Shown here: positions 25,532 through 49,453 of the stretch, in pieces
How positions within the stretch are numbered: the first letter of the stretch is position 1
Layout of the letters: each line of letters starts with the position of its first letter
IMG/VR virus record: IMGVR_UViG_3300032217_000845
Coordinates: 61,777-125,776 of that record
Length of the DNA: 64,000 nt
Strand: one strand, 5' to 3'
From: a virus
Made by a program: the position numbers and the translations under genes
Notes under the pieces: generated by a model
Databases searched by the model: none
Told to the model about the DNA's origin: nothing
Seen by the model: only the letters and a program-made list of their open reading frames with translations

Positions 25532-26023
25532 ATGGAGCACGACGCAATTTCTATTAATTTAACTTCTTCTAAAGGAAGTCCGGCACTAGCACAGGCACTG
25601 GCTAAGCTTCTTGGCTCGGTTGTTGTCTTCAAGTTCACAGCTCATGGCTTCCACTGGAACGTCAAGGGCAAGGACTTCCGCGAGTACCACGACTTCTTCG
25701 GGGCAATCTATGAAGACGTTGATGGCTCAATTGACCCAACAGCGGAGAACATTCTTAAGCTTGGCTACGATGCTCCATACATGCTAAGCGACTTTATTGA
25801 GCTATCATGCCTTGCTCCCCGAGAGCGTGTCACTACTGGCGACTGCCACCAGATGGCTCAAATTCTTGAGGCTGACAACGTTAAGTTGCTTCAGGAACTC
25901 GTTGGAGCTTTCGATATTGCTAATAGCTGCAACGAACAGGGAGTTGCAAACTTCCTTGCAGAGCGTATTGACATGCACCAAAAGTGGCAGTGGCAACTAC
26001 GAGCAACACTAAACATTCAGTAA
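25532..26023 (+). CDS. Dps-family ferritin (DNA protection during starvation)
   Basis: 163 residues, full length for Dps. The four ferroxidase ligands are present with E. coli Dps spacing: His41 (HWNVKG), His53, Asp68 and Glu72 (IDPTAENI). Dps forms a 12-subunit shell that oxidises iron and protects DNA from hydroxyl radicals. No Lys-rich N terminus is evident, so DNA binding is uncertain. The gene lies between portal and prohead genes and is likely expressed with them. Its product could be packaged in the virion or protect progeny DNA; both are inference. Confidence 0.9.
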   Translation: MEHDAISINLTSSKGSPALAQALAKLLGSVVVFKFTAHGFHWNVKGKDFREYHDFFGAIYEDVDGSIDPTAENILKLGYDAPYMLSDFIELSCLAPRERVTTGDCHQMAQILEADNVKLLQELVGAFDIANSCNEQGVANFLAERIDMHQKWQWQLRATLNIQ

Positions 26024-26042: not shown

Positions 26043-26720
26043 ATGTCCGGATATCTGTCAGAAGTACTAACTGACGTCACTGCTACCACGGCTAGTGGCG
26101 GTACTGGTGTATCTGCACCCGTGCTGAAAGAGGGAGATATTCAGCCAGCAAAGAAGAGCCCCACTCTAAAGCCGAAGAAGGTTCAATTCTCTAAGGCAGT
26201 AGAATCTGCTCTAGCGCAGAAGTACAAAGAATGCAGCACTGTTCTAAACGACGGGTCTAAAACTCCACAGCTTGATGCGTTCCGTGTAGTGTACCGAAGA
26301 GGAGCTAGCTCGTACGACAACGCTGACACTGGAACACTTAGCCGCCACGACTGGGCTATGGCAAGAGTCAATGCTTTCAGTGCTCTAGTTCAGGACGCTG
26401 CACTTGTAAGCTCTGCTTACAGTTCCGATGATGACTTGCTCCCTCCAACGCACTCACGTTCTAACGGAGCAACGCAGAACTATTCTGCTGACCTAACTGT
26501 CTCGATTCTCCCTGAGGACGAGTACGAATCTCAGGAGCAGGCAATCTTTGCACTAGCAGAGTTGTCTGGTCTTGGCTATGAAACAATCCCCGCTATTCGT
26601 ACCGCATGGGTACGAGCAGCTAACAAAAATGAAAACCCATTTGAGCGTGCAGCAGTACTTGCTTCTGCTCTCTACGACAGCCCAGATGCTGACCTGCTCC
26701 CAAAGAAAGGTATTCTCTAA
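26043..26720 (+). CDS. Head-associated hypothetical protein
   Basis: 225 residues. A central stretch, FRVVYRRGASSYDNADTGTL, followed by RHDWAMARVNAFSALV, is a motif shared by many actinophage head-region proteins ('YRRGA... WAMARVN'), of unknown function. The rest is low-complexity at the N terminus and helical at the C terminus. Starts ATG after a weak GGTAGGAAAC site. Its role is likely structural or in morphogenesis. Confidence 0.65.
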   Translation: MSGYLSEVLTDVTATTASGGTGVSAPVLKEGDIQPAKKSPTLKPKKVQFSKAVESALAQKYKECSTVLNDGSKTPQLDAFRVVYRRGASSYDNADTGTLSRHDWAMARVNAFSALVQDAALVSSAYSSDDDLLPPTHSRSNGATQNYSADLTVSILPEDEYESQEQAIFALAELSGLGYETIPAIRTAWVRAANKNENPFERAAVLASALYDSPDADLLPKKGIL

Positions 26721-27868: not shown

Positions 27869-27958
27869 CCTATTCAATAGTTCTATACACTTGTACTAGG
27901 TTAAAAACTTATTCGGGTACATTTGCCCGCTACCCTGAGACACATAAGAAGGAACACG

Positions 27959-30900
27959 ATGTCTGATTACCTAGACAGCCTTTACTCTGGCTTAAACGAA
28001 GAAAGCCTTACAGCGATTACTGCTGGTATTGGATTTAATGATGGAGCCAACAAAGGTTTCTGGCGCAAGCAGCCTCGCAAGAAGTGGGGTAAGGGCAAGG
28101 GTCAATGGATTGAGATGGGTGCACGACTACGTGCCCTATTCAACATCAATGGTAAACTTCAAAGCGTTACTGGTCGCTCTGCTGGTTCTGATGGTACCCC
28201 TAACGGTGTTCGTTTCCGTCCAGACCCTGGACAGCCTGGTGTAGACAGCAACCTACTCTACGGTGTTAACACTGCTCACCTAGAAGAGATTCAAGCTACC
28301 CTTCCAGACAACTATGTTGAGAGCAAGGGTCTTAACGCCAACCGTGAGCAGACTGGAACTGGCAGCGTAGTTTCTACCGCCAACATTCCAGACATAAATG
28401 ATATGGAGACTGCTCCTGTAACTCCTGATGACATCAGAATGATTGAAGAGGGTGTCAACTCTAAAGAGGGTCAAGAAGCAGAGAACTTCAAGAACACTGA
28501 CGAAGGTCAGCAAGTTGCCAGCTTAGATGACGTAGATGAGTCTGATGTTCTCACTGGCGAAGAAGTCAACCAGCTAGTTGACGGAAACGCTCCACGTAAT
28601 CTGGCAGGTTATAAAGGTCTAAAAGAAACTTCTCCTGGAAGTGGAATTTGGGATTACAAAGAAGGTAAATATAACTACCGACTAAAGCAGAACAAAGCTG
28701 GACAATGGGAAATCTATGCTGATGGTGCTAACCCTGACTATGAATATGATACTCCTGCAGATAGACGTAACATGCGTTACATGTTTGAAAAACTTGATGC
28801 TGGAAGCTACAGCAGCGTGCAGGACGCCATGGATAATTTCTTTGGCGCAGAGTACACCTCGAAGAAGTCTAAGAAATCTAACGAGGACGTCACCGAGCCA
28901 ATCGCTGTCGTTACCAATCCAGAAGATGTAGCTGACCTCACCCTAGGTGAGACCCCTCTTATGGAAGCTGGTCTAGTCAAACATCCAGGAGAATATCCTG
29001 GCATAACAGAGTATTCAGACGGTGAAGGTGACCTAACCCCAGAAAATGCTACCTTCGGTCTCGAGAATCTAGGCGGAGGTAACTGGGAGTTTACTAACTA
29101 CAAGACTGGTCAAATCTTCCCGATAAAGGCTGACAATCTTGCAGATGCCGAAAGACAGCTGGCCGACTATCGTCTTGAAAGAGGCGATTTCGACCCAGCA
29201 GTTATTCAAGCCCGCAGTGATGAGGAAACAGCTAACGCTCGTGGATTCACTGAAACTATGCGTGGCAGCCTGCAAGGCATGAAGGGTCGCAATATCAAGG
29301 GTGGTTTTGCTAAGGCTTACCCTAACGGAAGAACTGCAACCATTGTACAAGACGATGATGGTTCCTGGCACCTAGAAAAGCATGACGAGTTTAATGGTGG
29401 AATCCAAGAAACAAAGCGTTTTGAAGATGGCTACTTTAGCTCTGGATTAGACCAGGCCCTTGCAGAAGGTGACGCTTATCTAAACGAAGACATTGCTTTA
29501 CCAATGACTCGTAAAGAGTTCGGTGATTACGTTGAGAATCGCTATGGCGATGCCGAGCGTAAAAAGCCGGCCTTCCTAGACGAAGCTGCCATAGACGAGG
29601 CTTTTCAAAGCTACTCTGACATGTATAAAGAGAGTAAGGCAGACAACGGCTGGGTATCTAAAGACATGGACGCAGATGCGCGTTCTCAGGCATTCTCCGA
29701 AATGGATGACATGGCAGTGGCCGAAGAGAGAGACCCTCTAGGCGACGGTGGTTTTGACCAGCTAGTCAAAGATGCCATAGATGGTAAAGATGTAAGTCTA
29801 GATGGGCTGCTCAATGAAAAAAGCAAAATGGATGACCAAGACGGGGACGGTACTCCAGACGATGAAGACCCTGACTTCGACCCTGACCTAGAAGATACAG
29901 ACCTAGAGCTTACTAGCGGTGACCAAGACCCTGAACTACTTAGGGATATTGTTCGCAAAGACCGCGATGAGGCAGAGAATGTCAACATTGGCGATGTAAT
30001 CATGGGCCCTGATGGTATGCCTGTTCGTGTTAAGAGATACGACTGGGACGAGTCTGACTCTGACGAAGAGTCTCCTGGATTGACCATTACTGCTACCGAT
30101 GCTAACGGTGAAGAAGTAGAGTTTTACAAGGGTCGCTACGACAGCGTTTACTACCCAGAGTTTGCACCAGAAGGTGCTGCTCCAAAGGCCAAGCCTGCTG
30201 ATAAGCCGATTACTCCAGCTGATGCCACTCCAGCAACTCCTACCAGAGTTGCACCAGATAGCGCACTAGAGGTTGATGCTGGTCGAGTTCAGATTGGCGA
30301 CAAGCTTTACAGTCCAGACGGTTCTACACTTCTTGGTGAAGTTACTCAGACTCGTAAGAAGGGCGGCAAGACTGAAGCCCGCCTGAGCCTAGATGGTAAG
30401 GACGAAGGCTTCCAAGAGCTTGGTCCAGTAAACCTAGTCGATAGAAACCCTAGCGTTAATGCTCAGAAGCAGGCAGAGAAAGACGCCAAGAAGGCTGAAG
30501 CAGCTCGTGTCAAGGCTGAGAAGAAAGCCGCTGACGAGAAGGCTGCAGCTGACAAGGCAGCAGCTATGAATGACCCACGCACAGACGAGGGTATCGAGAA
30601 CCTAAAGGGTATCCTTGAAGCTGCTAATAACCCAGAGCGTCTTCAGCCTGCAATCGATGTTCTAAATGACCCTAGCCTAAGCAACGACGAGAAGGCTACT
30701 GCTCTTGTAGACGCTTTGACTACGAAACTTGGAATGCTGAATGGTACAGATGAACAGCGTCTGAATGCTCGTAAGGCAGAGCAGAAGGCTATGAAGATGC
30801 TAGAGGATGCTGGCATCCCTGGCTCTAGCCGAGAAGAGCGTCAATCTTCTGCGGCTGTACGTCGCTCTAGAAGCAACATTCAAGGAGACAGCAACCTTAA

Positions 30901-32857
30901 ATTCCCTGAAAGTAACACTCTTGCTGCAGAAGTTGCTGACATGAAGAAGCGTCTAGACGCTGGAGAAGATGTTCCGCTTGCGGAAACTGACGCTTTGAAT
31001 GACAAAATTGCTGCTCACCGTGACCGTTTCTGGATGAAGGGCGACTCTAGCGGTAAGCCACTTCCAGGTGAGGCAGAGCGTGTTGATGAAGAGATTCGTA
31101 AGGCACAGCGTGAGGGTACTGCTCCAATCCCATTCGTAAGAAAAGATGGCTCGGAGATTCGTCCTGACGACAACACTGCTGGCACAGCTACTCCAGCTGC
31201 TCCTACAACTCCTGGAGCAACTTCAGCTCCTACAACTCCAGCAACTCCTACCCAGTACAAGACTCCTGCCCCAACTCCTAAGGCTCCAAAGCACCCTAAG
31301 CCTGTCAAGAAGAGCCCTAAGGCTAAGCCAATCGGCACTCCTGACGACGATGGTAAGCCTATCAAGGGTGACAACAAAACTGATGCAGATGTCGAAGCAA
31401 TGCGTAACAGAAAACTGGAAAACGCTATCGATGCAGATGGTAACCCAGTTTATGCCAAGGACGTTAATGGGAACATCCTAACTGACAAGAAGGGCCGTCC
31501 AATTCCTCTACAGGATACAGACGCTATTCTTGCTGCTCTACGTGCAGACTACCCAGACGCCAAGCTAGACAACTTCGGTAACATTGTTGTCCACCGCGAG
31601 AAGTACAAGGCTGATGACGGCTCAGAGAAGATGTTTGAAGTCCTTGTTCACATGAACACTGGTGGTAAAATTGGTCTGTCAATGCGATTTACCGACCCAG
31701 CTACTGGCGAGGTAGAACACCTAATCCACCACGATGAGCGTGACTCCTACATGGGTCTACACGGTAAGACAAACGGTATTCAAGCTCTTATCGATATCGT
31801 TCAGGGTAAGAAGCCTAACACCGACCGTAAGACTGCTACCCGTGGATACAACACCGCTGGACTAACTGACTACCGTCAGCGTGCAGAATACTTTGTTCGC
31901 CAAGGCCGTCTGCTTACGCAGGGTCAGGTATGGGACAAGTACCTTTCAGGTATGGCTGAAGAAATTAACACCAGCATGGGCGGTAAGGGTAAGGCATATC
32001 TAACAAAGCGTAGAAGTGAAGTTGCTTCTGCTGCCGAGGCTCTTCGCCAAGGAGATAGAGAAACCTTCTTCCAGCGTGTTCGTGCTGCTGTTGGTCACAC
32101 TCCTGTTCACCCTAGCCAGAGAGCGGAAATGCGTAAAGCAATCCGTGACTATCTAGAGCGTGAAATGCCTGCGATGTCAGCTAGAGAGCGTACAATTCTT
32201 GCTCAGTATGTTGACAGACACCTAACCCGCCGTGGCGAACTAGTAGACCCTACTGGTAGAGATGTTCCATTTGTTTCTCGCGAAACAAGAAAGCTCGAGC
32301 CAGGCCTTTGGGTTGACTACGTAAACAACTTCGGTGAGAAATCTCGTGGTCGAGTAGTTAGCCTAGACGAGCCTCAGCTAAACGATGCTGGAACTGAGTA
32401 CTATGACAACGTAACTATAGAGTTTGCTAACGGAGAGCGAGTCTCTATGCTTACTTCACAGAACATGATTCCAGTTCCTCCGAAAGAACAGGCTAAGGCT
32501 GCTCCATCTAAGTACATTAAGAATGTTCAGGGTGAAGAGATGCGTCGTCGTCGTAGGGAGCAGCTTGGAATTACCGCAGCTAGAACTACTGGTGTTCTAA
32601 GATTCCTAGAAGATGTTAAAGCAGAAGAAGCCGAAATGGCAGAAAACGCTAACAAGACTGGTGGCAAGATTGAAGACCTCGGTGCTGGAGATACTCTCTT
32701 CAGCAAGGATGGTGACCCTCTAGGTCCAATCATCGAGAAGATTCCTATTGTTGGTAAGAGTGGTAACCCAGGTTACGCTGTTATCTTTGAAAATGCCGAT
32801 GGTGAAGAAGTTCAGGTTCGTCTACCTCTAGGAGAGTTCCGCGGCCCAAAAGCGTAA
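27959..32857 (+). CDS. Very large multidomain virion-type protein
   Basis: 1632 residues. Visible parts: an N-terminal stretch rich in RKQPRKKWGKGKGQW; several WxxE beta units; an acidic DQDGDGTPDDEDPDFDPDL segment near residue 625 resembling calcium-binding thrombospondin-3 repeats; a Lys/Ala coiled coil (about 840-865); a Pro/Thr linker (about 1075-1125); and a C-terminal folded part with SH3-like strands. The ATG at 27959 follows AGAAGGA. The end carries a slippery CCCAAAA and a hairpin (32845-32904), so a -1 shift may add the metalloprotease frame downstream, giving about 2140 residues. I cannot assign a function; internal virion or ejection protein is a guess. Confidence 0.7.
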   Translation: MSDYLDSLYSGLNEESLTAITAGIGFNDGANKGFWRKQPRKKWGKGKGQWIEMGARLRALFNINGKLQSVTGRSAGSDGTPNGVRFRPDPGQPGVDSNLLYGVNTAHLEEIQATLPDNYVESKGLNANREQTGTGSVVSTANIPDINDMETAPVTPDDIRMIEEGVNSKEGQEAENFKNTDEGQQVASLDDVDESDVLTGEEVNQLVDGNAPRNLAGYKGLKETSPGSGIWDYKEGKYNYRLKQNKAGQWEIYADGANPDYEYDTPADRRNMRYMFEKLDAGSYSSVQDAMDNFFGAEYTSKKSKKSNEDVTEPIAVVTNPEDVADLTLGETPLMEAGLVKHPGEYPGITEYSDGEGDLTPENATFGLENLGGGNWEFTNYKTGQIFPIKADNLADAERQLADYRLERGDFDPAVIQARSDEETANARGFTETMRGSLQGMKGRNIKGGFAKAYPNGRTATIVQDDDGSWHLEKHDEFNGGIQETKRFEDGYFSSGLDQALAEGDAYLNEDIALPMTRKEFGDYVENRYGDAERKKPAFLDEAAIDEAFQSYSDMYKESKADNGWVSKDMDADARSQAFSEMDDMAVAEERDPLGDGGFDQLVKDAIDGKDVSLDGLLNEKSKMDDQDGDGTPDDEDPDFDPDLEDTDLELTSGDQDPELLRDIVRKDRDEAENVNIGDVIMGPDGMPVRVKRYDWDESDSDEESPGLTITATDANGEEVEFYKGRYDSVYYPEFAPEGAAPKAKPADKPITPADATPATPTRVAPDSALEVDAGRVQIGDKLYSPDGSTLLGEVTQTRKKGGKTEARLSLDGKDEGFQELGPVNLVDRNPSVNAQKQAEKDAKKAEAARVKAEKKAADEKAAADKAAAMNDPRTDEGIENLKGILEAANNPERLQPAIDVLNDPSLSNDEKATALVDALTTKLGMLNGTDEQRLNARKAEQKAMKMLEDAGIPGSSREERQSSAAVRRSRSNIQGDSNLKFPESNTLAAEVADMKKRLDAGEDVPLAETDALNDKIAAHRDRFWMKGDSSGKPLPGEAERVDEEIRKAQREGTAPIPFVRKDGSEIRPDDNTAGTATPAAPTTPGATSAPTTPATPTQYKTPAPTPKAPKHPKPVKKSPKAKPIGTPDDDGKPIKGDNKTDADVEAMRNRKLENAIDADGNPVYAKDVNGNILTDKKGRPIPLQDTDAILAALRADYPDAKLDNFGNIVVHREKYKADDGSEKMFEVLVHMNTGGKIGLSMRFTDPATGEVEHLIHHDERDSYMGLHGKTNGIQALIDIVQGKKPNTDRKTATRGYNTAGLTDYRQRAEYFVRQGRLLTQGQVWDKYLSGMAEEINTSMGGKGKAYLTKRRSEVASAAEALRQGDRETFFQRVRAAVGHTPVHPSQRAEMRKAIRDYLEREMPAMSARERTILAQYVDRHLTRRGELVDPTGRDVPFVSRETRKLEPGLWVDYVNNFGEKSRGRVVSLDEPQLNDAGTEYYDNVTIEFANGERVSMLTSQNMIPVPPKEQAKAAPSKYIKNVQGEEMRRRRREQLGITAARTTGVLRFLEDVKAEEAEMAENANKTGGKIEDLGAGDTLFSKDGDPLGPIIEKIPIVGKSGNPGYAVIFENADGEEVQVRLPLGEFRGPKA

Positions 32858-32904
32858 AGGCTTCTGAGCCAACGTCTCGGGATGCCGAGGCATCCTCAGA
32901 GGCC
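32845..32904 (+). other. Candidate programmed -1 ribosomal frameshift site
   Basis: The heptamer C-CCA-AAA (32845-32851) is in the correct phase, two codons before the TAA at 32855. Seven bases later a 10-bp stem forms from GGCTTCTGAG (32859-32868) and CTCAGAGGCC (32895-32904), with an inner GATGC/GCATC hairpin. The -1 frame is open from here through 34377. Confidence 0.7.
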
Positions 32905-32934
32905 ACTGGTCCGAATCTCAATGAGAAAAACGCT

Positions 32935-34377
32935 ATGTTTAGGGACTTTGACCTAGACGAAGGCGGTAACCCAGGGCAAATTAAGCTGGTATCCGAAGAG
33001 TCTGATTCAGACTTTGACGATGTTGAGGTAGACACTTCTTACTTGCGAAAAGCAGCCGCTTCGTCGCCTACTACTGATGCAGTAGATGAAGCCTTAGCTC
33101 CATTTGTAGATACTTATGGATTGGCGGCGGCTCCTTCAGACATTATGTCGCTTAGCCAGGCTGCTGATACTGTTAACAAGGCTGCAGCAGAACTACGTGC
33201 TAACCCAAGCGCAGAGACCAATAAAAAGTATAAAGAATCTCTACAAGCCTTCCTAAATCACAGAGCTTATATGATTCAGCGTGCTCACGAAGAATTTATT
33301 ATCCCTGGCGACATGAAGAAAGACTGGGAGCTCCCAGCTGACAGTCTTCTCTCGGTTTCAGAGCTAAAACTTATAAATGCTGCTATCAAACCATCTAAGT
33401 TATATGGTGCCGGAATCGGTGGCGGACGAGTACAGAAGTTCTCTCCTAAGGTAAATCGTAAGAACGCACCGAACTGGGCAGCCACTCTAGAGACAGCCAG
33501 AGAGATGGACCAAACCAACAAGAATAACCCAATCAAGGACTTAGCTCCAAACTGGGAAGTTCAGTCGTTTGAAGATAAGCTAGTTGCTGGAGAGAGCGAT
33601 TTGCTTGATGCAAATGGTGCACCTATGGCTGGACTAAGGACTGGAGTATCGGTTCACATCGTCAAGCTACTAAGCCGAGCTAGTGTTCTGCAAGAAGTAC
33701 GAGACTTTATGACTGTTGGCACCATGCAGCTTAAAGATTCTTCTGGAGTTTATGCTGGAAAACTTACTATCAACAGCGGTCTTACTAAGGGCAAACGATA
33801 CGCTACCGATGAAGAAATTAATGCCGCACTTGCTAGCATTATGGATGCTGGTGGGAAGCTACACCTCCCGGGTACAGCAGGCTCTGTTGCTGCTGGTGAT
33901 ATCCTAAAAGACAATGGTATGGATATATTTATAACATCGTCCGGTAGAGAGCTAACTTCAATCACTTCTATGCATGGCACCGAGCGTAACGCACTTGCTT
34001 ATGCAACTCCTTTGTTTGGAATTACAGTGTTTGCTGATAGAGTTAGAGACTCTCAGGCAAGTACTGATAAGGGCAGAGGGCAGCTAGATGGTTCCCCAAT
34101 GGACTGGTGGTCTTCTAAGATTAACCCGAATACCTTGGAGACATGGGACCACACTATGAAGCACGAAATTGGCCACATAGTTGATGCCAGAAGTAGCACC
34201 CTAAGCAATGATAATAGCTTTGGCTCCATCGGTTCTCCTAGCCAATATGGTAGAAAGAACTCGAAGGAGAAATTTGCTGAGCTATTCGCCAAGTACATGC
34301 GAGGCGAGCCAGTGTCAGACACATTTATGGCTATCCTTAGAAATAAGGGGCTATTGAAGTCCCAGCAGAGCAACTGA
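32935..34377 (+). CDS. Zinc metalloprotease (HEIGH), probably expressed by -1 frameshift
   Basis: 480 residues from the first ATG. HEIGH at 410-414 is an HExxH zinc site, and Glu449 in FAELFAKYM is a likely third ligand as in gluzincins. The frame is open upstream, without a stop, back into the preceding gene, whose end carries a slippery heptamer with a well-spaced stem. The ATG at 32935 has no good ribosome site. So the protein may exist mainly as a fusion to the 1632-residue protein. A prohead or ejection protease that processes virion proteins or the host surface is possible. Confidence 0.75.
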   Translation: MFRDFDLDEGGNPGQIKLVSEESDSDFDDVEVDTSYLRKAAASSPTTDAVDEALAPFVDTYGLAAAPSDIMSLSQAADTVNKAAAELRANPSAETNKKYKESLQAFLNHRAYMIQRAHEEFIIPGDMKKDWELPADSLLSVSELKLINAAIKPSKLYGAGIGGGRVQKFSPKVNRKNAPNWAATLETAREMDQTNKNNPIKDLAPNWEVQSFEDKLVAGESDLLDANGAPMAGLRTGVSVHIVKLLSRASVLQEVRDFMTVGTMQLKDSSGVYAGKLTINSGLTKGKRYATDEEINAALASIMDAGGKLHLPGTAGSVAAGDILKDNGMDIFITSSGRELTSITSMHGTERNALAYATPLFGITVFADRVRDSQASTDKGRGQLDGSPMDWWSSKINPNTLETWDHTMKHEIGHIVDARSSTLSNDNSFGSIGSPSQYGRKNSKEKFAELFAKYMRGEPVSDTFMAILRNKGLLKSQQSN

Positions 34378-35047: not shown

Positions 35048-38000
35048 ATGGTAAATTTCGTTGGTCGCAGTGGCGAACTAGCTTTATTCAGCAATGGTTC
35101 GGATGCTGCTGTAGTTAACACCTCCCTCAACTTAGTTGTGGGTGTCGGTGAATACTCTGTGCTATCTGCCACGCGCGAATGGCAGAGTACCGACGAAGTC
35201 ATTTCTAGTTCGGTCATAGAACTTGCAGCTGGTGCCGTTACTACTCTCGACATCAAAGTTATAACTGCTGCCGCTGGACGTATGTATACAATTCCAGACG
35301 GTGCAAAAGGAGAAGCTAAAAAAGCCCTTGAATGGCATAAAGAGCATCATCGCGGCGGAACTCCTGTAGGTCTAAATACTGCTCGTACTCTTGCTAAGGG
35401 CGGCCAGATTGGTATTGAAAAGGTACGTCACATAGCTAAGTACTTTGCCCGTCACGAAGTAGATAAAAAAGGCAAGGGCTACAAGCCTGGCCAAGACAAC
35501 TTCCCGAGCAACGGACGAATCGCGTGGGCCTTGTGGGGCGGTGACACCGCTTGGCGTTGGGCTAAGGCAATCGTTGAGCGTGAGAACAAGAAAGCTCTTA
35601 CTGCTGGCGGTTATGCACTTCCTGGATATCACGACAGCGTAGAAACTTATAGAACAGCAGATGCTTATGACTCAAGCATGGATGCTTTCAAGATGGCTCA
35701 CGAACTTGAGCCAGAGTATGGTCCAGAGTTTATGGCTCGTGTTCGTATGGATGGTTCGGGTATTGACCGACTATATAAAGTTGACCACGATGGCACCGTC
35801 TGCGTTTGGGATGGCAAAGGCTGGGACGACTTAGGCCACGTTGAGGGCGACATATGGAGCTACGACCGTGCTCTAGATGACCCATATGACCACTGTGAAA
35901 AAGACCACTTTATAATTGACCCGGAGTCAGCAGTTGCTATCTCTGGGCACATGCAGGAGAATCCATTTAATAGAGTATCTCTTGAAGACATAGATGCTTA
36001 TGAGGCTAACCTCATGGCAGATGGTATTCCTGACGAAGACTGGCAAATGGTTGACTATGCGTTGACAGCTGCTGGCGACTCTATGTCTGGTGCCAAGGGC
36101 GCAAAGCCTACTGGTGCAGTTAAGGCTGGCGATGGTCAGTACACTGCAGCAGAACGTTCTAACATTGCTACCTCTGCTCCTCGTGATGCTACTGGTAAGT
36201 TTGCTAAGTCTGGTGGTCGTGCTGTAGTTGGAAACAATCCAGCAACTGGTGCTGGAACTATTGTTGGACGAAGCAAGACTCCTGGAAACATTATGTTCAA
36301 AAAGGATAGCGATGGACAGACCATTGACGTTCCTGCTAAGTACAGTACCCCTGAAGATAAGTTCCAAGCTCCGACCCCTCCTACTGGCGTAGATTATGGT
36401 AAGCCACTAGACACTTCTGGGATTTTAGGCGAGCCACGTACTCCAAATGATATGCCTGGAGCCCAACTTAAAGGCACTCTCCCTCCAATGACTCAGCAAG
36501 ATATGAAGAGCCTACTTAATGACTGGCCTTCATATGTTCAAAAGCAGCGTGCGTCCTTCACTCCTACTAATGAGGCAGATGCTCGTAAGTATGCTCAGGA
36601 AACTAAGCAGAAAGTTCGTGAAGTACCGACAGTAACTCGTACCCCTATTACTACTTTTAAAGATGGAAAGTTAGTTCAACAAAATAGAGTTACAAAACAG
36701 TCAAGTCCGTCAGCTGTTGATAAGTTCTTACCTAACCCAGTTAAACCTGGTGTACCTAAATCTCTACAAGTACCTAAGAGACCAGCAGTGGCTAAGCCAA
36801 CTGGTCAGCCTGGTGCATGGTCTACTGCAGTTAAAAAGGCTCCGTCTCCATACAAGCCGATTGGAAATAACAAAACTGCAGAGAACGCTAGAAAAGGTCT
36901 TCTTATGGGCCCGCTTTCTGGTCGTGGACCAGTTACTAAAAGTTCAAGTAGTGCTGGACCTGCTCCTCAAGGGAATTTTGTCCGTGGTCAAAGTCGTATG
37001 GATGGTAGACCAGGCTCTACAGTAAACCCTAAAGGTCAGCCTGGGGCATGGGACACTGGCAAGAATGGTACAGGTAGACCTGGTATTAAGTCTGCTGACC
37101 CTCGTAATGCTCCTGGCTCAAACAGGCAGACAACGCCAGCATCTAAGTCTCAGTTTGATGACAAGGGTCGTTACGTAGTTCAAAAGGGAGATAACCTATG
37201 GTCTATCTCCGACAAAAACAAACCTAAGGGTCAAACTACAGCTCAGTACTGGAACAAGGTTCTTGATGCAAACAAGGGCAAGTTCAAGTCAGGCAACCCT
37301 AGTCTCATCTATTCTGGTGAGCGTGTAACTCTGCCGGGCGTAGGTAAGCCTATGAGCCCAGCCGAGAAACGTAATGCAGACGCTAAAGCTTACGGCCAGG
37401 GCATTATGCAAGGTATTGCCAAGGATAAAGCTCAAAAAGCTGCAAAGCAAAATTCAGATGCCAAGCAGTATGGTCAAGGTATCCTTGCTGGAAAGGCTAA
37501 AGCCAAGGCTGAGGCTGACAAGCGTAATGCAGACGCCAAGGCATACGGTCAGGGCAGAATAGCCGGAAACGCTAAGGCAAAAGCCGCGGCAGATGCAAAG
37601 CGTAATGCAGACGCCAAAGAAATTGGCACAGCTAAATTGAAGGCTGCTGCAAAGGTCAAAGCTGCAAGCGATAAGCGCAATGCTGATGCTAAAGCATACG
37701 GACAGGGTATCAAGTCAGGTATTGCTCAGAAGCGCAACGCTGATGCCAAAGCTTATGGGCAAGGTATCTTGTCTGGTAAAGCTAAGGCTCAGGCTCAAGC
37801 GGATAAGCGTAATGCCGATGCTAAAGCTTATGGTAAAGGCATTATGTCTGGACAGGCTAAGGCAAAAGCAGCAGCGGATGCTAAGCGTAATTCAGATGCT
37901 AAAGCTTATGGACAGGGTATCAAGTCTGGTATTGACAAAGCTAAGGCAGATGCTGCAAAGCGTAATGCTGACGCTAAAGCATTTGGTGAAGGCAAGAAAG

Positions 38001-38848
38001 CCGGAATTGCTAAGAAGCGTAATGACGATGCTAGAGAGTATGGTCAGGGCATTATGAAGGGCATTGCTAAAGACAAAGCTCAACAGTCTTCACTAGACGA
38101 CAAAGGTCGCTACGTTGTAAAAAAGGGCGACAGTCTTTGGTCTATTGCTGATAAGAACAAGCCTTCCAACGAAAGCACTGCTAACTACTGGTCTAAAGTT
38201 ATGAAGGCCAACCCGAAAGAAAACTTTAAGTCTGGTAATCCAAGCCTTATCTACTCCGGTGAGCGTGTGAACCTCCCAGGCGTAAAGAAGAATGCTCCTA
38301 AGATGACTCCTTCCCAGAAGCTAAACGCTCAGGCTAAAGAATATGGTGAAGGTAAGTTGGCAGGTATTGCTAAATCTAAAGCCGAAGCCGCTAAGCGTAA
38401 TGCCGATGCTAAAGAAATTGGTCAGGCTAAGAAAGCCGGTATTGCCAAGAGCAATGCTCAAAAATCTGCAAAGGCAAATGCTGATGCTAAAGAACTAGGT
38501 AAAGCAAAGCAGTCTAGTATTGCTAAGTCTAAGGCTCAGAGTGCCAAGATTAATGCTGATGCTAAGCAGCTGGGAGAAGCTAAAAAAGCTTCTCAGCCAA
38601 AAGCAACTCCTAAGCCTTTCTTGAATCCAGTAAAGCCAGGAGTTCCTAAGTCTCTACAGAAGCCAGCCCCTTCCAAGCAGCCTCAAAAGCCAGCCCCCTC
38701 CAAGCAGCCCGAGAAAAACCCTATTAGGGAAGCACTTGAAGGTATTAAGAAACGTACTACCTATAAGCAAGAGGTTTTTGTACCAGCTTCAGAACAGAAG
38801 GCAGTAAAACGTGGCAAGGCTGGAACTCGTAAGCGTAATCAGGGCTAA
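35048..38848 (+). CDS. Large LysM protein with 14 internal repeats
   Basis: 1266 residues. The N-terminal 100 residues are beta-rich. Then comes ALEWHKEHHRGGTPVGLNTA...GRIAWALWGGDTAWRWA (about 95-180), a module seen in actinophage head-region proteins. After a Pro/Gly-rich linker there are two LysM domains (about 705-765 and 1017-1080: GRYVVKKGDSLWSIADKNKP ... NPSLIYSGERV), which bind peptidoglycan GlcNAc. Ten copies of a roughly 20-25-residue KRNADAKAYGQGI..G.AK unit lie between them and four after the second. The repeats should be helical and basic. A wall-binding virion or infection protein is likely. ATG after AAAGGCTAAAA. Confidence 0.8.
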   Translation: MVNFVGRSGELALFSNGSDAAVVNTSLNLVVGVGEYSVLSATREWQSTDEVISSSVIELAAGAVTTLDIKVITAAAGRMYTIPDGAKGEAKKALEWHKEHHRGGTPVGLNTARTLAKGGQIGIEKVRHIAKYFARHEVDKKGKGYKPGQDNFPSNGRIAWALWGGDTAWRWAKAIVERENKKALTAGGYALPGYHDSVETYRTADAYDSSMDAFKMAHELEPEYGPEFMARVRMDGSGIDRLYKVDHDGTVCVWDGKGWDDLGHVEGDIWSYDRALDDPYDHCEKDHFIIDPESAVAISGHMQENPFNRVSLEDIDAYEANLMADGIPDEDWQMVDYALTAAGDSMSGAKGAKPTGAVKAGDGQYTAAERSNIATSAPRDATGKFAKSGGRAVVGNNPATGAGTIVGRSKTPGNIMFKKDSDGQTIDVPAKYSTPEDKFQAPTPPTGVDYGKPLDTSGILGEPRTPNDMPGAQLKGTLPPMTQQDMKSLLNDWPSYVQKQRASFTPTNEADARKYAQETKQKVREVPTVTRTPITTFKDGKLVQQNRVTKQSSPSAVDKFLPNPVKPGVPKSLQVPKRPAVAKPTGQPGAWSTAVKKAPSPYKPIGNNKTAENARKGLLMGPLSGRGPVTKSSSSAGPAPQGNFVRGQSRMDGRPGSTVNPKGQPGAWDTGKNGTGRPGIKSADPRNAPGSNRQTTPASKSQFDDKGRYVVQKGDNLWSISDKNKPKGQTTAQYWNKVLDANKGKFKSGNPSLIYSGERVTLPGVGKPMSPAEKRNADAKAYGQGIMQGIAKDKAQKAAKQNSDAKQYGQGILAGKAKAKAEADKRNADAKAYGQGRIAGNAKAKAAADAKRNADAKEIGTAKLKAAAKVKAASDKRNADAKAYGQGIKSGIAQKRNADAKAYGQGILSGKAKAQAQADKRNADAKAYGKGIMSGQAKAKAAADAKRNSDAKAYGQGIKSGIDKAKADAAKRNADAKAFGEGKKAGIAKKRNDDAREYGQGIMKGIAKDKAQQSSLDDKGRYVVKKGDSLWSIADKNKPSNESTANYWSKVMKANPKENFKSGNPSLIYSGERVNLPGVKKNAPKMTPSQKLNAQAKEYGEGKLAGIAKSKAEAAKRNADAKEIGQAKKAGIAKSNAQKSAKANADAKELGKAKQSSIAKSKAQSAKINADAKQLGEAKKASQPKATPKPFLNPVKPGVPKSLQKPAPSKQPQKPAPSKQPEKNPIREALEGIKKRTTYKQEVFVPASEQKAVKRGKAGTRKRNQG
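37366..38604 (+). repeat. Coding repeats: 14 helical KRNADAKAYGQG units and LysM 2
   Basis: Ten units in 37366-38096, the second LysM, then four more units from about 38320. Codons differ between copies (AAGCGTAATGC/AAGCGCAACGC and so on), so selection acts on the protein. Confidence 0.85.
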
Positions 38849-38906
38849 ATAGCACTAACCAGTCCAAAGTATACTAATACTAGTGAATTTTAAAGAAGGT
38901 ACTCAG

Positions 38907-41900
38907 ATGGCAGAAGCACCAGCGGTCGCCCCTAAAGCACAGGGCGCACCCGAGGTTACCCCAGCCACATCGGATGTTCCGCCACTATACATGGCTATTG
39001 TGTCTCCTGATGACCCGGCTGCAGTTATGCAAGTTGTTGCTCTTACCCCCGAGAACGCTGAGTCCACAAACCCTATGACATTTAAGCGTGTTGAAGGTCA
39101 GTGGGTTAAAGATGAGCAAATTCTTCGTGACCTAAAGTCTGCCACTCCACCACCTGTAGTTCCTCTTGATGCAACTGTTCTTGATGGTGTGTTACAACAG
39201 GTTGATAAGGCTAGCCCAGCTGTTACTGCTTCTGGCTTAATTGCTGTCTTCCGCCTCACCGACCTAGATGAGATTCTAGAAAAAGAAGACGAGCAAGAAA
39301 CTTCTTATGTTGATGCACTTGTAGCTTCAGTTTTTGCTGGAGTTGAAGAGTATGCTTCTGATGAAGAAGACTACTTTGCTCTACTTTCCACTGAAGAATA
39401 TGCCATGCTTGAAGCAGAAGGTCTTCTAGAGGAATTTTCTATTCAAGCAGCTGGCGGTCTAGACCGTAACCGTGGTAATGCCGAAGAACTACGTCGTTAC
39501 TGGACTAAGGGTAAGGGTGCTGCAAAGATTCGCTGGGGTACCCCTGGCGACTGGACCCGTTGTGTCCGTCATTTATCTAAGTACATGGGTACTCGTGCAA
39601 AGGGCTATTGCCAGCTTCGTCACAAGGATGCTCTAGGTTTCTATACAGCTACCCACGCAAAAAATGACCGTGCTCACGACTTTGCTGCGGATGAGTCATT
39701 TGAAGCAGCAGTTATTGAGCAAGCTTTCCTAACTGCTCAAGCTAATGTTGCTCGCTCACGTATGTCTTTGACAGCAGCAGCCACTACCGCTGAGCCTATG
39801 TATGGTGCAGAGTTTTCTATCCCTCTAGTTCTTCCAGAAGACCACGAGTCGGGAGATGGACGTAAGTTTAAGACAGAATCAGTAGAGATTAGAGAACTGC
39901 CTCTACCTCTTCTATGGCAGTACAAAACTGGCGAAGGCCATTCAGGTTCAGTAGTCGTAGGCCGTATCGACTACATGGAGAGAATTGAAGGCGGAATTGG
40001 AAATGCACGTGGTGTATTTGACAATGGCCCTCACGGTAAAGAAGCCGAGCGTTTAGTTCGTAACGGATTTCTCCGTGGCGTATCTGCAGACCTCGACCAG
40101 TTTGAAGCAAAAGAATCAAAAGCGGAAGGTTCCGCAGATGAGCTTGGCGACGAACTTGGAAAGAACAAAATTACCATAAATCACGCCCGTGTTATGGCTG
40201 TTACAATTGTACCCAAGCCCGCTTTTCAAGAGTGTTTAATCATGCTTGTAAAAGACGAGGAGCAGGAGGATGACATGATTCCTAAAGATGGAATTTACGA
40301 AGAATCGGTTGATGCGCAAGAGCCAGGAGCATCGTTAGTTGCATCTGGCTTCCTTAGTGCACCAATCCCGACTGTACCACCGACCGATTGGTTTGCTGAC
40401 CCGTCTCTAAGCAAGCCAACCCCACTGACTATTACTGAAGATGGCCGCATCTACGGTCACGTTGCTGCATGGCATGTAAACCACATAGGTCTGCCAAATA
40501 ATACTAAGCCACCTCGCTCTCGTAGCAACTATGCCTACTTCCACACTGGCGTTGTACGTACCGATGCTGGTAAAGATGTTCCAGTTGGTCAGCTAACTCT
40601 TGCTGGTGGACATGCATCTCTACATGCCAGTGCATCCCAGGCAGCTAAGCACTACGATGACACAGCTTCTGCTATTGCAGACGTCCACGCGGGTGAGGAC
40701 CGCCACGGTATTTGGGTAGCTGGCTCTCTACGTCCAGAGGCAACTGAATCACAGATTCGTGCACTTCGTGCCTCTGCTCCTTCAGGTGACTGGCGTCCAG
40801 TCGGTGGCTCACTTGAGCTTGTTGCTGTATGTCAGGTAAACGTTCCTGGCTTCCCAATTGCTCGTGCTCTTGTTGCATCTGGTTCTGTTATGGCTCTTGT
40901 AGCTGCTGGTGCATATGAAATGGCTATGATGCGTTTCGATGCAGCAAGCAAGCTAACTGCTAAAGCTGATGCACTTGGTGCTCTAAGCTCTAGCGTTGAA
41001 GACCTAAACATTCGTGAGCGAATCTCGACTAAGAAGATTGACTCCGAGTTTGGATACGTATCTCGTGACGAGCGTCAAAAGCTTGCTTCCGAGGGCAAAG
41101 CACTTCCAGACGGCTCTTATCCAGTAAGCAATGTAGATGACTTAAAAAATGCTATTCAAGCATATGGACGTTCTAAAGAAGCTGACCGTGCCAAGGTTCG
41201 TCGTCACATAATTAAGCGTGCAAACGCTCTCAAGGTTCGTCACATGATTCCAGAAGACTGGAAGACTGCTTCTTCAAGTGAAGCTTATTCAGCTCTATCT
41301 AACATGCGTTCAAAGATTGAATCCCTTACTGCTGCTATACCCGCTCCAGTTGAGATTAGCGATACCGACTTAAAAAAACTTGAAGACGCCAAGATTGCTG
41401 CTGACTTAGAACGTGAACAAGTACAGGCAGAAATCAAAGCTCGTAAAGACGGTTCAGTTCTTCCAAACAATGCCCTACCTAAATTTGACCAGGAAACTGG
41501 ACTAACTAAGTTTATCCCTGGTAAGACTCAGCCTCGTGATGCTGCTGGTAAGTTCCGTAAGGTTCTTGCTCGTCTAAAGCAGGACCTAGGTGTTGCTGGT
41601 CTACAGGAAGCTTTGAAGCAAGTAGAGAAGACCGAGAACTTAGAGTTTGCTGGAAACTATACTCAGGCCGCGGCTTCTGCTCAAGACCTGCTTGGAACTA
41701 TTGACCGCCTCGACTCAGGTGCTCTAGATGCAACTAAATTGGAGAATGTTCGCCTTACCGCGAAAGACCTTGGAAAAGTAATTTCTAACCTACCGTTGCC
41801 ATTTACTAACCAAGCACAAAAAGTTAGATTTTCCGACCTTCCGCCTGCACTAAAGAATCTTGTCGATGACATGATTACTCGTGTAGAAGGGAAGATTGGT

Positions 41901-42017
41901 AAAAAGGACGCAGATGTTGCAACCGCAAAACTGCGTTCCTACAAGTCCGGAGCCGACGTTTTCTCTCAGTCTGAGATTTCATCTGAGATGGCTACGTTGC
42001 TCCGACTCCTTACCTAA
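38907..42017 (+). CDS. Capsid maturation protease with long extensions
   Basis: 1036 residues. The region about 330-440 (beta-rich, VVVGRIDYMERIEGG.. FLRGVSADLDQFE) and about 520-655 match actinophage prohead proteases: GQLTLAGGHASLHAS with His569, GIWVAGSLRP, and LRASAPSGDWRPVGGSLELV with Ser623/Ser626, then VNVPGFPIARAL. It would cut scaffold and capsid N termini during head assembly. An extra N-terminal module (NAEELRRYWTKGKGAAKIRW... RHLSKYMGTRAKGYCQLRH) and a C-terminal 350-residue helical region are unusual for a protease and may serve as scaffold. The ATG at 38907 follows AGAAGG. Confidence 0.8.
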   Translation: MAEAPAVAPKAQGAPEVTPATSDVPPLYMAIVSPDDPAAVMQVVALTPENAESTNPMTFKRVEGQWVKDEQILRDLKSATPPPVVPLDATVLDGVLQQVDKASPAVTASGLIAVFRLTDLDEILEKEDEQETSYVDALVASVFAGVEEYASDEEDYFALLSTEEYAMLEAEGLLEEFSIQAAGGLDRNRGNAEELRRYWTKGKGAAKIRWGTPGDWTRCVRHLSKYMGTRAKGYCQLRHKDALGFYTATHAKNDRAHDFAADESFEAAVIEQAFLTAQANVARSRMSLTAAATTAEPMYGAEFSIPLVLPEDHESGDGRKFKTESVEIRELPLPLLWQYKTGEGHSGSVVVGRIDYMERIEGGIGNARGVFDNGPHGKEAERLVRNGFLRGVSADLDQFEAKESKAEGSADELGDELGKNKITINHARVMAVTIVPKPAFQECLIMLVKDEEQEDDMIPKDGIYEESVDAQEPGASLVASGFLSAPIPTVPPTDWFADPSLSKPTPLTITEDGRIYGHVAAWHVNHIGLPNNTKPPRSRSNYAYFHTGVVRTDAGKDVPVGQLTLAGGHASLHASASQAAKHYDDTASAIADVHAGEDRHGIWVAGSLRPEATESQIRALRASAPSGDWRPVGGSLELVAVCQVNVPGFPIARALVASGSVMALVAAGAYEMAMMRFDAASKLTAKADALGALSSSVEDLNIRERISTKKIDSEFGYVSRDERQKLASEGKALPDGSYPVSNVDDLKNAIQAYGRSKEADRAKVRRHIIKRANALKVRHMIPEDWKTASSSEAYSALSNMRSKIESLTAAIPAPVEISDTDLKKLEDAKIAADLEREQVQAEIKARKDGSVLPNNALPKFDQETGLTKFIPGKTQPRDAAGKFRKVLARLKQDLGVAGLQEALKQVEKTENLEFAGNYTQAAASAQDLLGTIDRLDSGALDATKLENVRLTAKDLGKVISNLPLPFTNQAQKVRFSDLPPALKNLVDDMITRVEGKIGKKDADVATAKLRSYKSGADVFSQSEISSEMATLLRLLT

Positions 42018-48734: not shown

Positions 48735-49073
48735 ATGAGTAGATTTAAAGACTTTGGCAAGACTGTCGACCTAGATAAGCCAGCAGAACCACTATCGTTC
48801 AAACTTTGGGACGAAGAGTTCCACTGTGTCCGTCGTATTCAAGGCCGCGTTATGTTGGAACTTGTAGAGAGTTCGAACGCAGACGACCCTTCAGCATCAG
48901 CTAGAACAATCCGTACCTTCTTCAAGAAGATTATGCTTCCAGAAAGCTACGAGCGATTTGACGCACTTCTTGGCGACCAAGACAAAATTGTTTCTGTAGA
49001 AACACTTAGCGAAATTGTTGCTTGGCTAATTGAACAGTACGGTGACCGCCCAAATCCGCAGCCAGGGGCTTAG
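48735..49073 (+). CDS. Tail assembly chaperone G
   Basis: 112 residues, mostly helical and acidic; the first of the two reading frames before the tape measure. In lambda and many siphoviruses the G protein and its -1 shifted GT form bind the tape measure during tail assembly. The slippery CCCAAAT at 49049 lies six codons before its stop. ATG follows AGAAAGAAAACAAG. Confidence 0.8.
   Translation: MSRFKDFGKTVDLDKPAEPLSFKLWDEEFHCVRRIQGRVMLELVESSNADDPSASARTIRTFFKKIMLPESYERFDALLGDQDKIVSVETLSEIVAWLIEQYGDRPNPQPGA
49049..49055 (+). other. Programmed -1 frameshift slippery site (G/GT)
   Basis: C-CCA-AAT is in phase with the G frame (CGC CCA AAT). The -1 frame is open from here through the second chaperone frame, giving ...LATWAVDLWPYVNGKAIV, which reads naturally into it. 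Confidence 0.8.
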
Positions 49074-49120
49074 CCACTTGGGCTGTAGACCTCTGGCCAT
49101 ATGTAAACGGTAAAGCAATA

Positions 49121-49453
49121 GTGAATCACATAAACCTTTTGGAACTAGATTTAGCAGAAATGCTAGATGTGATTCACTATTTTTACGAGGAAGACCTCAA
49201 CTATTTCACTGTTGAACATGCAAAGATGGCTGAGGTTAGACGTGTAGCGATTTACAAACATCTCTACAATGTCGACTATAAGTACGGTAGTGGTGGTGCC
49301 TCTTCTGGTGTTGCCAATGGCGGATTTGATGAAGATAACCTCGAGCCGTTTGACCCAAGTAACGCACCAGTAAAATCGTATTTTCCGCCTACTGAAGTGG
49401 ATGCAGATTCACGTAATCCTTTTGGTAGCGTACTTGATGCACCAATTAACTAA
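49121..49453 (+). CDS. Tail assembly chaperone T domain, expressed as a G-T fusion
   Basis: 110 residues from a GTG, but that GTG has no ribosome site, and the frame continues upstream to the slippery heptamer, so it is probably made only as a -1 frameshift fusion to G. DLAEMLDVIHYFYEEDL is typical of actinophage T domains. The tape measure follows directly. Confidence 0.8.
   Translation: MNHINLLELDLAEMLDVIHYFYEEDLNYFTVEHAKMAEVRRVAIYKHLYNVDYKYGSGGASSGVANGGFDEDNLEPFDPSNAPVKSYFPPTEVDADSRNPFGSVLDAPIN

Follow-up and report, generated by a model that had tools for sequence, protein, structure and literature searches.

The window analyzed here, a stretch of 64,000 nucleotides (nt) corresponding to bases 61777-125776 of the 125.8-kb IMG/VR virus record IMGVR_UViG_3300032217_000845, contains a gene for a giant protein of 1632 residues, which is followed in the -1 frame by an open reading frame (ORF) for a putative metallopeptidase. 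The 3' end of the giant gene reads CGC GGC CCA AAA GCG TAA, in which the slippery heptamer CCCAAAA is separated from the stop by a single sense codon (GCG). This is the sole occurrence of CCCAAAA on the + strand of the window. A 7-nt spacer (GCGTAAA) leads from the heptamer to a two-part hairpin composed of a 10-base-pair (bp) outer stem (32859-32868/32895-32904) and a 7-bp inner stem (32874-32880/32885-32891), for which a minimum free energy of -29.3 kcal/mol was computed (z = -5.0 versus 200 dinucleotide shuffles). The hairpin outranked all background positions sampled, and a search of Rfam gave no matching family. The first ATG of the -1 frame, located 78 nt past the TAA, has no Shine-Dalgarno sequence, and the 480-codon ORF that begins there is probably not an independent gene. 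A -1 shift at the heptamer is predicted to generate a fusion of approximately 2139 residues (1631 + 508). The initial annotation had described the exact X-XXY-YYZ phase of CCCAAAA near the stop, the 7-nt spacer and a 10-bp stem enclosing an inner hairpin, a 480-codon HEIGH metalloprotease in the open -1 frame, the lack of a ribosome site at its ATG, and a fusion of about 2140 residues, all of which were reproduced. An in-frame TTG at 27923, upstream of the ATG of the giant gene, is a possible alternative start.

Relatives were gathered by a two-portal profile (80 loci) and three more scans with C-terminal subgroup profiles. The same junction was found at the same gene place in 22 further distinct IMG/VR relatives, which makes 23 with the window (L002, L019, L021, L024, L028, L030, L032, L033/L034, L039, L044, L047, L051, L052, L053, L057, L061/L062/L116, L097, L098, L100, L103, L108, and L113). 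The heptamer is CCCAAAA in 18 of the 23 and AAAAAAA in the other five, with 0-1 codon between heptamer and stop throughout. The stem starts 4-8 nt past the heptamer in the 20 junctions examined, with which later junctions agree; the stem sequences are unrelated between subgroups, and their distance from the heptamer is alike. Conservation of heptamer and stem, which the initial annotation had proposed as a check, is seen among these relatives. The -1 frame spans 265-1004 codons among them, some being cut by contig ends. When 606 distinct ends of ORFs of at least 150 codons were pooled over all loci, CCCAAAA or AAAAAAA was located at most two codons from the stop in 28, against about 0.17 expected from the in-phase internal rate (9.6e-5 per codon), and the -1 frame past all 28 was open for at least 110 codons; because the pooled loci are kin to one another and were selected as such, these are not 28 independent events. 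A chance origin of the junction is excluded by this count together with the conservation.

The hairpins were compared with matched background positions, which gave a combined p of 9e-16 (the junctions are not independent). In the subclade of L047, L052, L097, L098, L100, and L103, a 42-nt hairpin aligns without gaps, 94% of its cells pair, and four pairs exhibit double compensatory changes, while sliding the partner lowers the pairing to 20-52%. In the short 0-frame overlap, 3 of 24 codons were changed versus 39 of 144, for which suppression of synonymous codon changes is suggestive only. One locus picked up via an exact 18-mer (L003) was rejected as a chance match.

The closest relative, L002 (IMGVR_UViG_3300045999_001100), encodes both parts with 81-86% identity to the window. 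Across the slip site and hairpin (32822-32914), 91 of 93 nt are identical, one difference being the change of TAA to TAG, versus 79% identity over the region 150-600 nt upstream. L002 carries an extra stretch, about 113 codons long, that separates the slip site from the protease in the -1 frame and stands upstream of the supposed ATG; the whole -1 frame of L002 (638 codons) remains open. Such a frame-preserving insertion makes little sense unless ribosomes reach the -1 frame via the slip site.

Seven other relatives encode the two parts in one continuous frame. Five of them (L026, L031, L042, L067, and L068) keep the junction residues R-x-P using the codons CCT-AAG, CCT-AAA, or CCT-AAT and have no stop, and, as was shown for L026, L031, L042, and L067, the frame extends into a peptidase tail (HExxH...FAE) with homology to the shifted tails. 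In L045 and L107, the junction region is missing and the HExxH tail is of another kind. When the 0-frame C-terminal part was placed in a tree, fused members fell at four positions, and therefore at least four switches are counted. A single fusion protein is supported because five of the seven keep the junction residues without slippery codons, and the fused relatives support the idea that the long form would be a real protein, its proportion being what the frameshift controls. The initial annotation had named fused frames, or a separate tail gene with a good ribosome site, as evidence that would speak against a frameshift; such a separate gene was found in no relative examined, and fused frames occurred in the seven described above.

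The tail is a predicted zincin-like metallopeptidase of the HExxH...E type. The H, E, and H of its HEIGH motif are invariant in 17 tails, as is E479, the Glu of FAELF(AKY), for which the role of third zinc ligand is presumed from zincin architecture (PMC5512222). HExxH was located in 21 of the 23 junction members, whose tails are otherwise diverse. No Pfam model reached its cut-off with the window tail; the top solved-structure matches of the tail profile were zinc peptidases, headed by the lethal factor catalytic domain, an M34-type zincin (E = 7e-4). This match indicates a likely fold and not a toxin, and the peptidases of polyvalent proteins were defined through the same relation to the lethal-factor-type fold (PMC5512222). 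The tail of L057 is composed of two ArdC N-terminal plus MPTase-PolyVal modules (E about 5e-48), of which the L051 tail is a 67% homologue, and these tandem ArdC antirestriction modules (L057 11279-13588; L051 8922-11237) are reachable only via the -1 frame. In both loci, the 0-frame giant protein has 1827-1943 residues and a C-terminus without detectable similarity to other members, which suggests that the cassette may have been acquired separately. L044, L047, and L052 carry an additional tail domain; the C-terminal domain of L044 and L047 appeared ADP-ribosyltransferase-like by eye, an assignment dropped as no profile backs it. AlphaFold yielded mediocre models for both the tail and the 0-frame C-terminal part, with only weak, unreliable matches in fold searches of PDB and viral structures, and no homologue of the tail was found in cultured phages.

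Table 1. Coordinates of the features at the frameshift junction of the window, and of similar junctions in Gordonia phages.
Feature	Position	Strand	Remark
0-frame giant gene	27959..32857	+	1632 residues from ATG 27959; ends ...FRGPKA-stop
Slippery heptamer CCCAAAA	32845..32851	+	0-frame C_CCA_AAA; X-XXY-YYZ phase
0-frame stop TAA	32855..32857	+	TAG in L002
Stimulatory hairpin (putative)	32859..32904	+	two-part; identical in L002
-1 open frame	32806..34377	+	510 codons from slip site; unstructured/helical linker and predicted metallopeptidase
480-codon ORF from first ATG of -1 frame	32935..34377	+	gene-caller style annotation; no Shine-Dalgarno sequence
HEIGH zinc-binding motif of tail	34162..34176	+	H, E, H invariant in 17 tails
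Glu of FAELF(AKY), presumed third zinc ligand	34279..34281	+	tail E479; invariant in 17 tails
Junction in Sixama (NC_070762.1)	L014 15268-15600		probable frameshift
Junction in Forza (NC_070763.1)	L122 13398-13784		probable frameshift
Junction in Mareelih (OP820470.1)	L123 12900-13286		probable frameshift

The giant gene is located between the portal gene and the head protease gene, near the portal and terminase genes. The order in the window is TerL (21643), portal (23712), a head-protease/portal-type protein (38883), and major head protein (42047), followed by the major tail protein (45330) and tape measure (49473). The portal shares 71% identity with that of Actinomycetia phage DSL-LC01, and the window genes and their relatives mark the virus as an actinobacterial tailed phage; a portal scan of GTDB genomes gave no match, and hence no host was indicated. 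The first approximately 150 residues of the giant protein resemble A3Wally gp85 and its kin, which are giants encoded after the portal in Microbacterium phages, and this stretch is the only match of the giant protein to cultured phages. In the same region, cultured phages encode proteins with an ADP-ribosyltransferase domain (Sixama) or with UvrD helicase plus ADP-ribosyltransferase domains (Atuin). The C-terminal part could be aligned in 19 relatives, and proline-rich linkers stand before this conserved domain. Several disparate domains in one polypeptide are clear only in L057 and the cultured phages. In polyvalent proteins, which are injected giants, the most frequent domain is a zincin peptidase, for which self-processing or action on the host has been proposed (PMC5512222). 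Given the position between portal and head protease, the N-terminal match to cultured giants, the ADP-ribosyltransferase and helicase domains found there, and the ArdC tails, we consider it fairly likely that the giant protein serves as cargo in the manner of polyvalent proteins, being packaged into the head and delivered along with the DNA.

Three further features of the window were noted. A ferritin/Dps-like gene (25532-26023) immediately 3' of the portal gene has homologues in 66 of the compared loci. A 1266-residue protein with endolysin-like and LysM regions is encoded at 35048-38848 within the head gene block, soon after the frameshift gene. In the stretch 48735-49453, CCCAAAT is found at 49049, five codons 5' of the stop at 49073, and the -1 frame extends uninterrupted to 49453; located just before the tape measure gene, this is probably an ordinary tail assembly chaperone frameshift.

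Taken together, a programmed -1 ribosomal frameshift at CCCAAAA, giving a short and a long form of the giant protein, is very probable. This reading rests on the verified slip site, phase, spacer, and hairpin, the junction in 22 relatives, the four compensatory pairs, and the 28 of 606 ORF ends, as well as the in-frame insertion of L002, the fused in-frame tails with non-slippery codons, the invariant catalytic residues, and the absence of a usable start near the tail. The -1 frameshift fusing a protease tail, as claimed in the initial annotation, is hence strongly backed by comparison, while the shift by the ribosome itself is inferred. Ribosomes would be paused by the two-part hairpin at C_CCA_AAA, where some would slip back to pair with CCC_AAA, miss the TAA, and read on for 508 codons into the zincin-like metallopeptidase. 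Two products sharing the first 1631 residues would result, a short form of 1632 residues and a long form of about 2139 residues with the protease tail, the latter presumably being the minority. The frameshift would thus set the fraction of giant-protein copies bearing the enzyme, and both forms may be co-packaged via their shared part. The protease would then either process the packaged giant protein or attack host proteins after entry. The case for action in the host draws on the ArdC tails and on the helicase and ADP-ribosyltransferase domains encoded at this place in cultured phages, and that for processing of the packaged giant on the gag-pro logic and P1 DdrB. A wider picture, in which a few protease-bearing copies are metered in a gag-pro-like manner into a head-packaged giant polyprotein that the protease matures in the virion or in the new host cell, with the cassette reused for other enzymes and genes (the ArdC modules of L051/L057, a second gene in L089/L094, and the Gordonia head maturation protease), is speculated only tentatively. 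Several observations weigh against the frameshift and cargo readings. The 1632 residues of the window protein matched no family in Pfam, PHROG, or NCBIfam, and its location in the virion is a deduction; HExxH is absent in L030, and in L108, which is cut by a contig end; the seven fused relatives manage without a frameshift, so that a fixed ratio is not indispensable; and the support comes from sequence comparison.

The alternative closest to the reading above accepts the same frameshift and differs on function, regarding the tail as mainly a gag-pro-like maturation enzyme, of which a few copies cleave the packaged giant protein either within the head or during ejection, instead of acting on the host. 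Its layout resembles gag-pro, zincin domains have been suggested to autoprocess polyvalent proteins such as P1 DdrB (PMC5512222), and the proline-rich linkers ahead of the conserved C-terminal domain are consistent with it. However, a protein matching head maturation protease/portal families is encoded nearby (38883-42017), the ArdC tails of L051 and L057 point to action in the host, and every copy in the fused relatives is a protease; we regard this function as possible, if somewhat doubtful.

The remaining alternatives deny the ribosomal shift. If two ordinary genes were present, reinitiation or coupling past the TAA would yield the metallopeptidase as a protein of its own, for which the ATG at 32935 offers a start. 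This is very unlikely, since that ATG is without a Shine-Dalgarno sequence, the first possible tail start in L028, L034, and L039 is 300-380 nt past the slip site, the -1 frame of L002 is open through a domain inserted upstream of the ATG, and the conserved heptamer and hairpin as well as the in-frame fusions are left unexplained. Transcriptional slippage could operate on AAAAAAA in five members, where RNA polymerase could slip, but the other 18 have CCCAAAA with only four A, and the phased heptamer with a hairpin at 4-8 nt is a ribosomal signature, which makes slippage more improbable still. As the records were assembled from metagenomes, an error of sequencing or assembly might be suspected, or else a gene in decay after a frameshift mutation. 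The arrangement recurs in 23 distinct sequences from many metagenomes, with conserved stop, heptamer, and hairpin and with catalytic residues invariant past the shift, which leaves this explanation scarcely credible for the window, and for the family it is already excluded as far as comparison can tell.

The same cassette of CCCAAAA, stop, and hairpin was also observed at the end of another gene in L089 (13891) and L094 (3571), a homologue of the window gene at 26043-26720 (...DLLPK). The -1 frames there have 678 and 674 codons, respectively, with HETSH in that of L094. CCCAAAG at 26699 in the window was considered as a further frameshift site; it is probably none, because the homologues in L021 and L032 read CCTAAG. 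In addition, the head maturation protease gene of the cultured Gordonia phages Sixama, Forza, and Mareelih ends in CCCAAAA-GACCRC-TAA followed by CCGCAG...CTGCGG, and an open, homologous -1 frame stretches 105-123 codons past the stop (Table 1). This is a probable unannotated -1 frameshift, and its presence in cultured phages opens the idea to laboratory tests. At every junction, a long protein is predicted that gene callers would divide, and metallopeptidase and ArdC effectors of this phage group are therefore likely misannotated as stand-alone genes. The repeated switches between shifted and fused states offer a natural experiment for asking if the ratio is important.

Phage frameshifting has so far been known mainly for tail assembly chaperones, which also make up most of a survey with PRFect (PMC10885494), and for a few coat and tail proteins. 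Here, it appears to recur across diverse, mostly uncultured actinobacterial phages, where it would decide which giant-protein copies carry an enzyme. Lambda G/GT (Levin 1993; Xu 2004; reviewed in PMC5009743) likewise sets a ratio of short to extended products by a -1 frameshift, close to the 3' terminus of a morphogenesis gene; it differs in gene and position, and the extension in the window is an enzyme of several hundred residues. The place of G/GT, between the major tail protein and the tape measure, is not that of the giant gene and is occupied in the window by the separate chaperone-type site at 49049. In T7 gp10B, T3, Lactobacillus A2, and Listeria A118/A500/PSA (PMC5009743), a frameshifted C-terminal extension is likewise placed on a fraction of a virion protein, and some lineages encode the extension in frame, as do the fused relatives here. 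The initial annotation knew of no phage head protein expressed this way, which these coat proteins show to be too broad. Their extensions are Ig-like or short, whereas a giant non-coat protein would here be extended by a predicted metallopeptidase or by ArdC modules. Polyvalent proteins (Iyer et al. 2017, PMC5512222), including P1 DdrB and the N4 virion RNA polymerase, are likewise giants encoded beside portal and packaging genes with a zincin metallopeptidase; they share the ArdC modules with L057, and injection with the DNA was proposed there. They differ in that the metallopeptidase is in frame on every copy, and frameshifting does not appear in the text of that paper. In the literature covered, from which many subscription papers are missing, nothing relevant linked frameshifting to polyvalent proteins, virion proteases, or metalloproteases, and the addition of a protease or antirestriction tail to a phage protein by frameshifting seems new. 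Retroviral gag-pro and gag-pol share no homology with the system of this DNA phage, whose predicted enzyme is a zinc metallopeptidase with a zincin motif instead of an aspartic protease, and cleavage of the own polyprotein, a retroviral feature, is only a proposal for the window giant. The two are alike in layout, in which a stop-ended majority is accompanied by a minority that acquires a protease through a programmed -1 frameshift at X_XXY_YYZ followed by an RNA structure.

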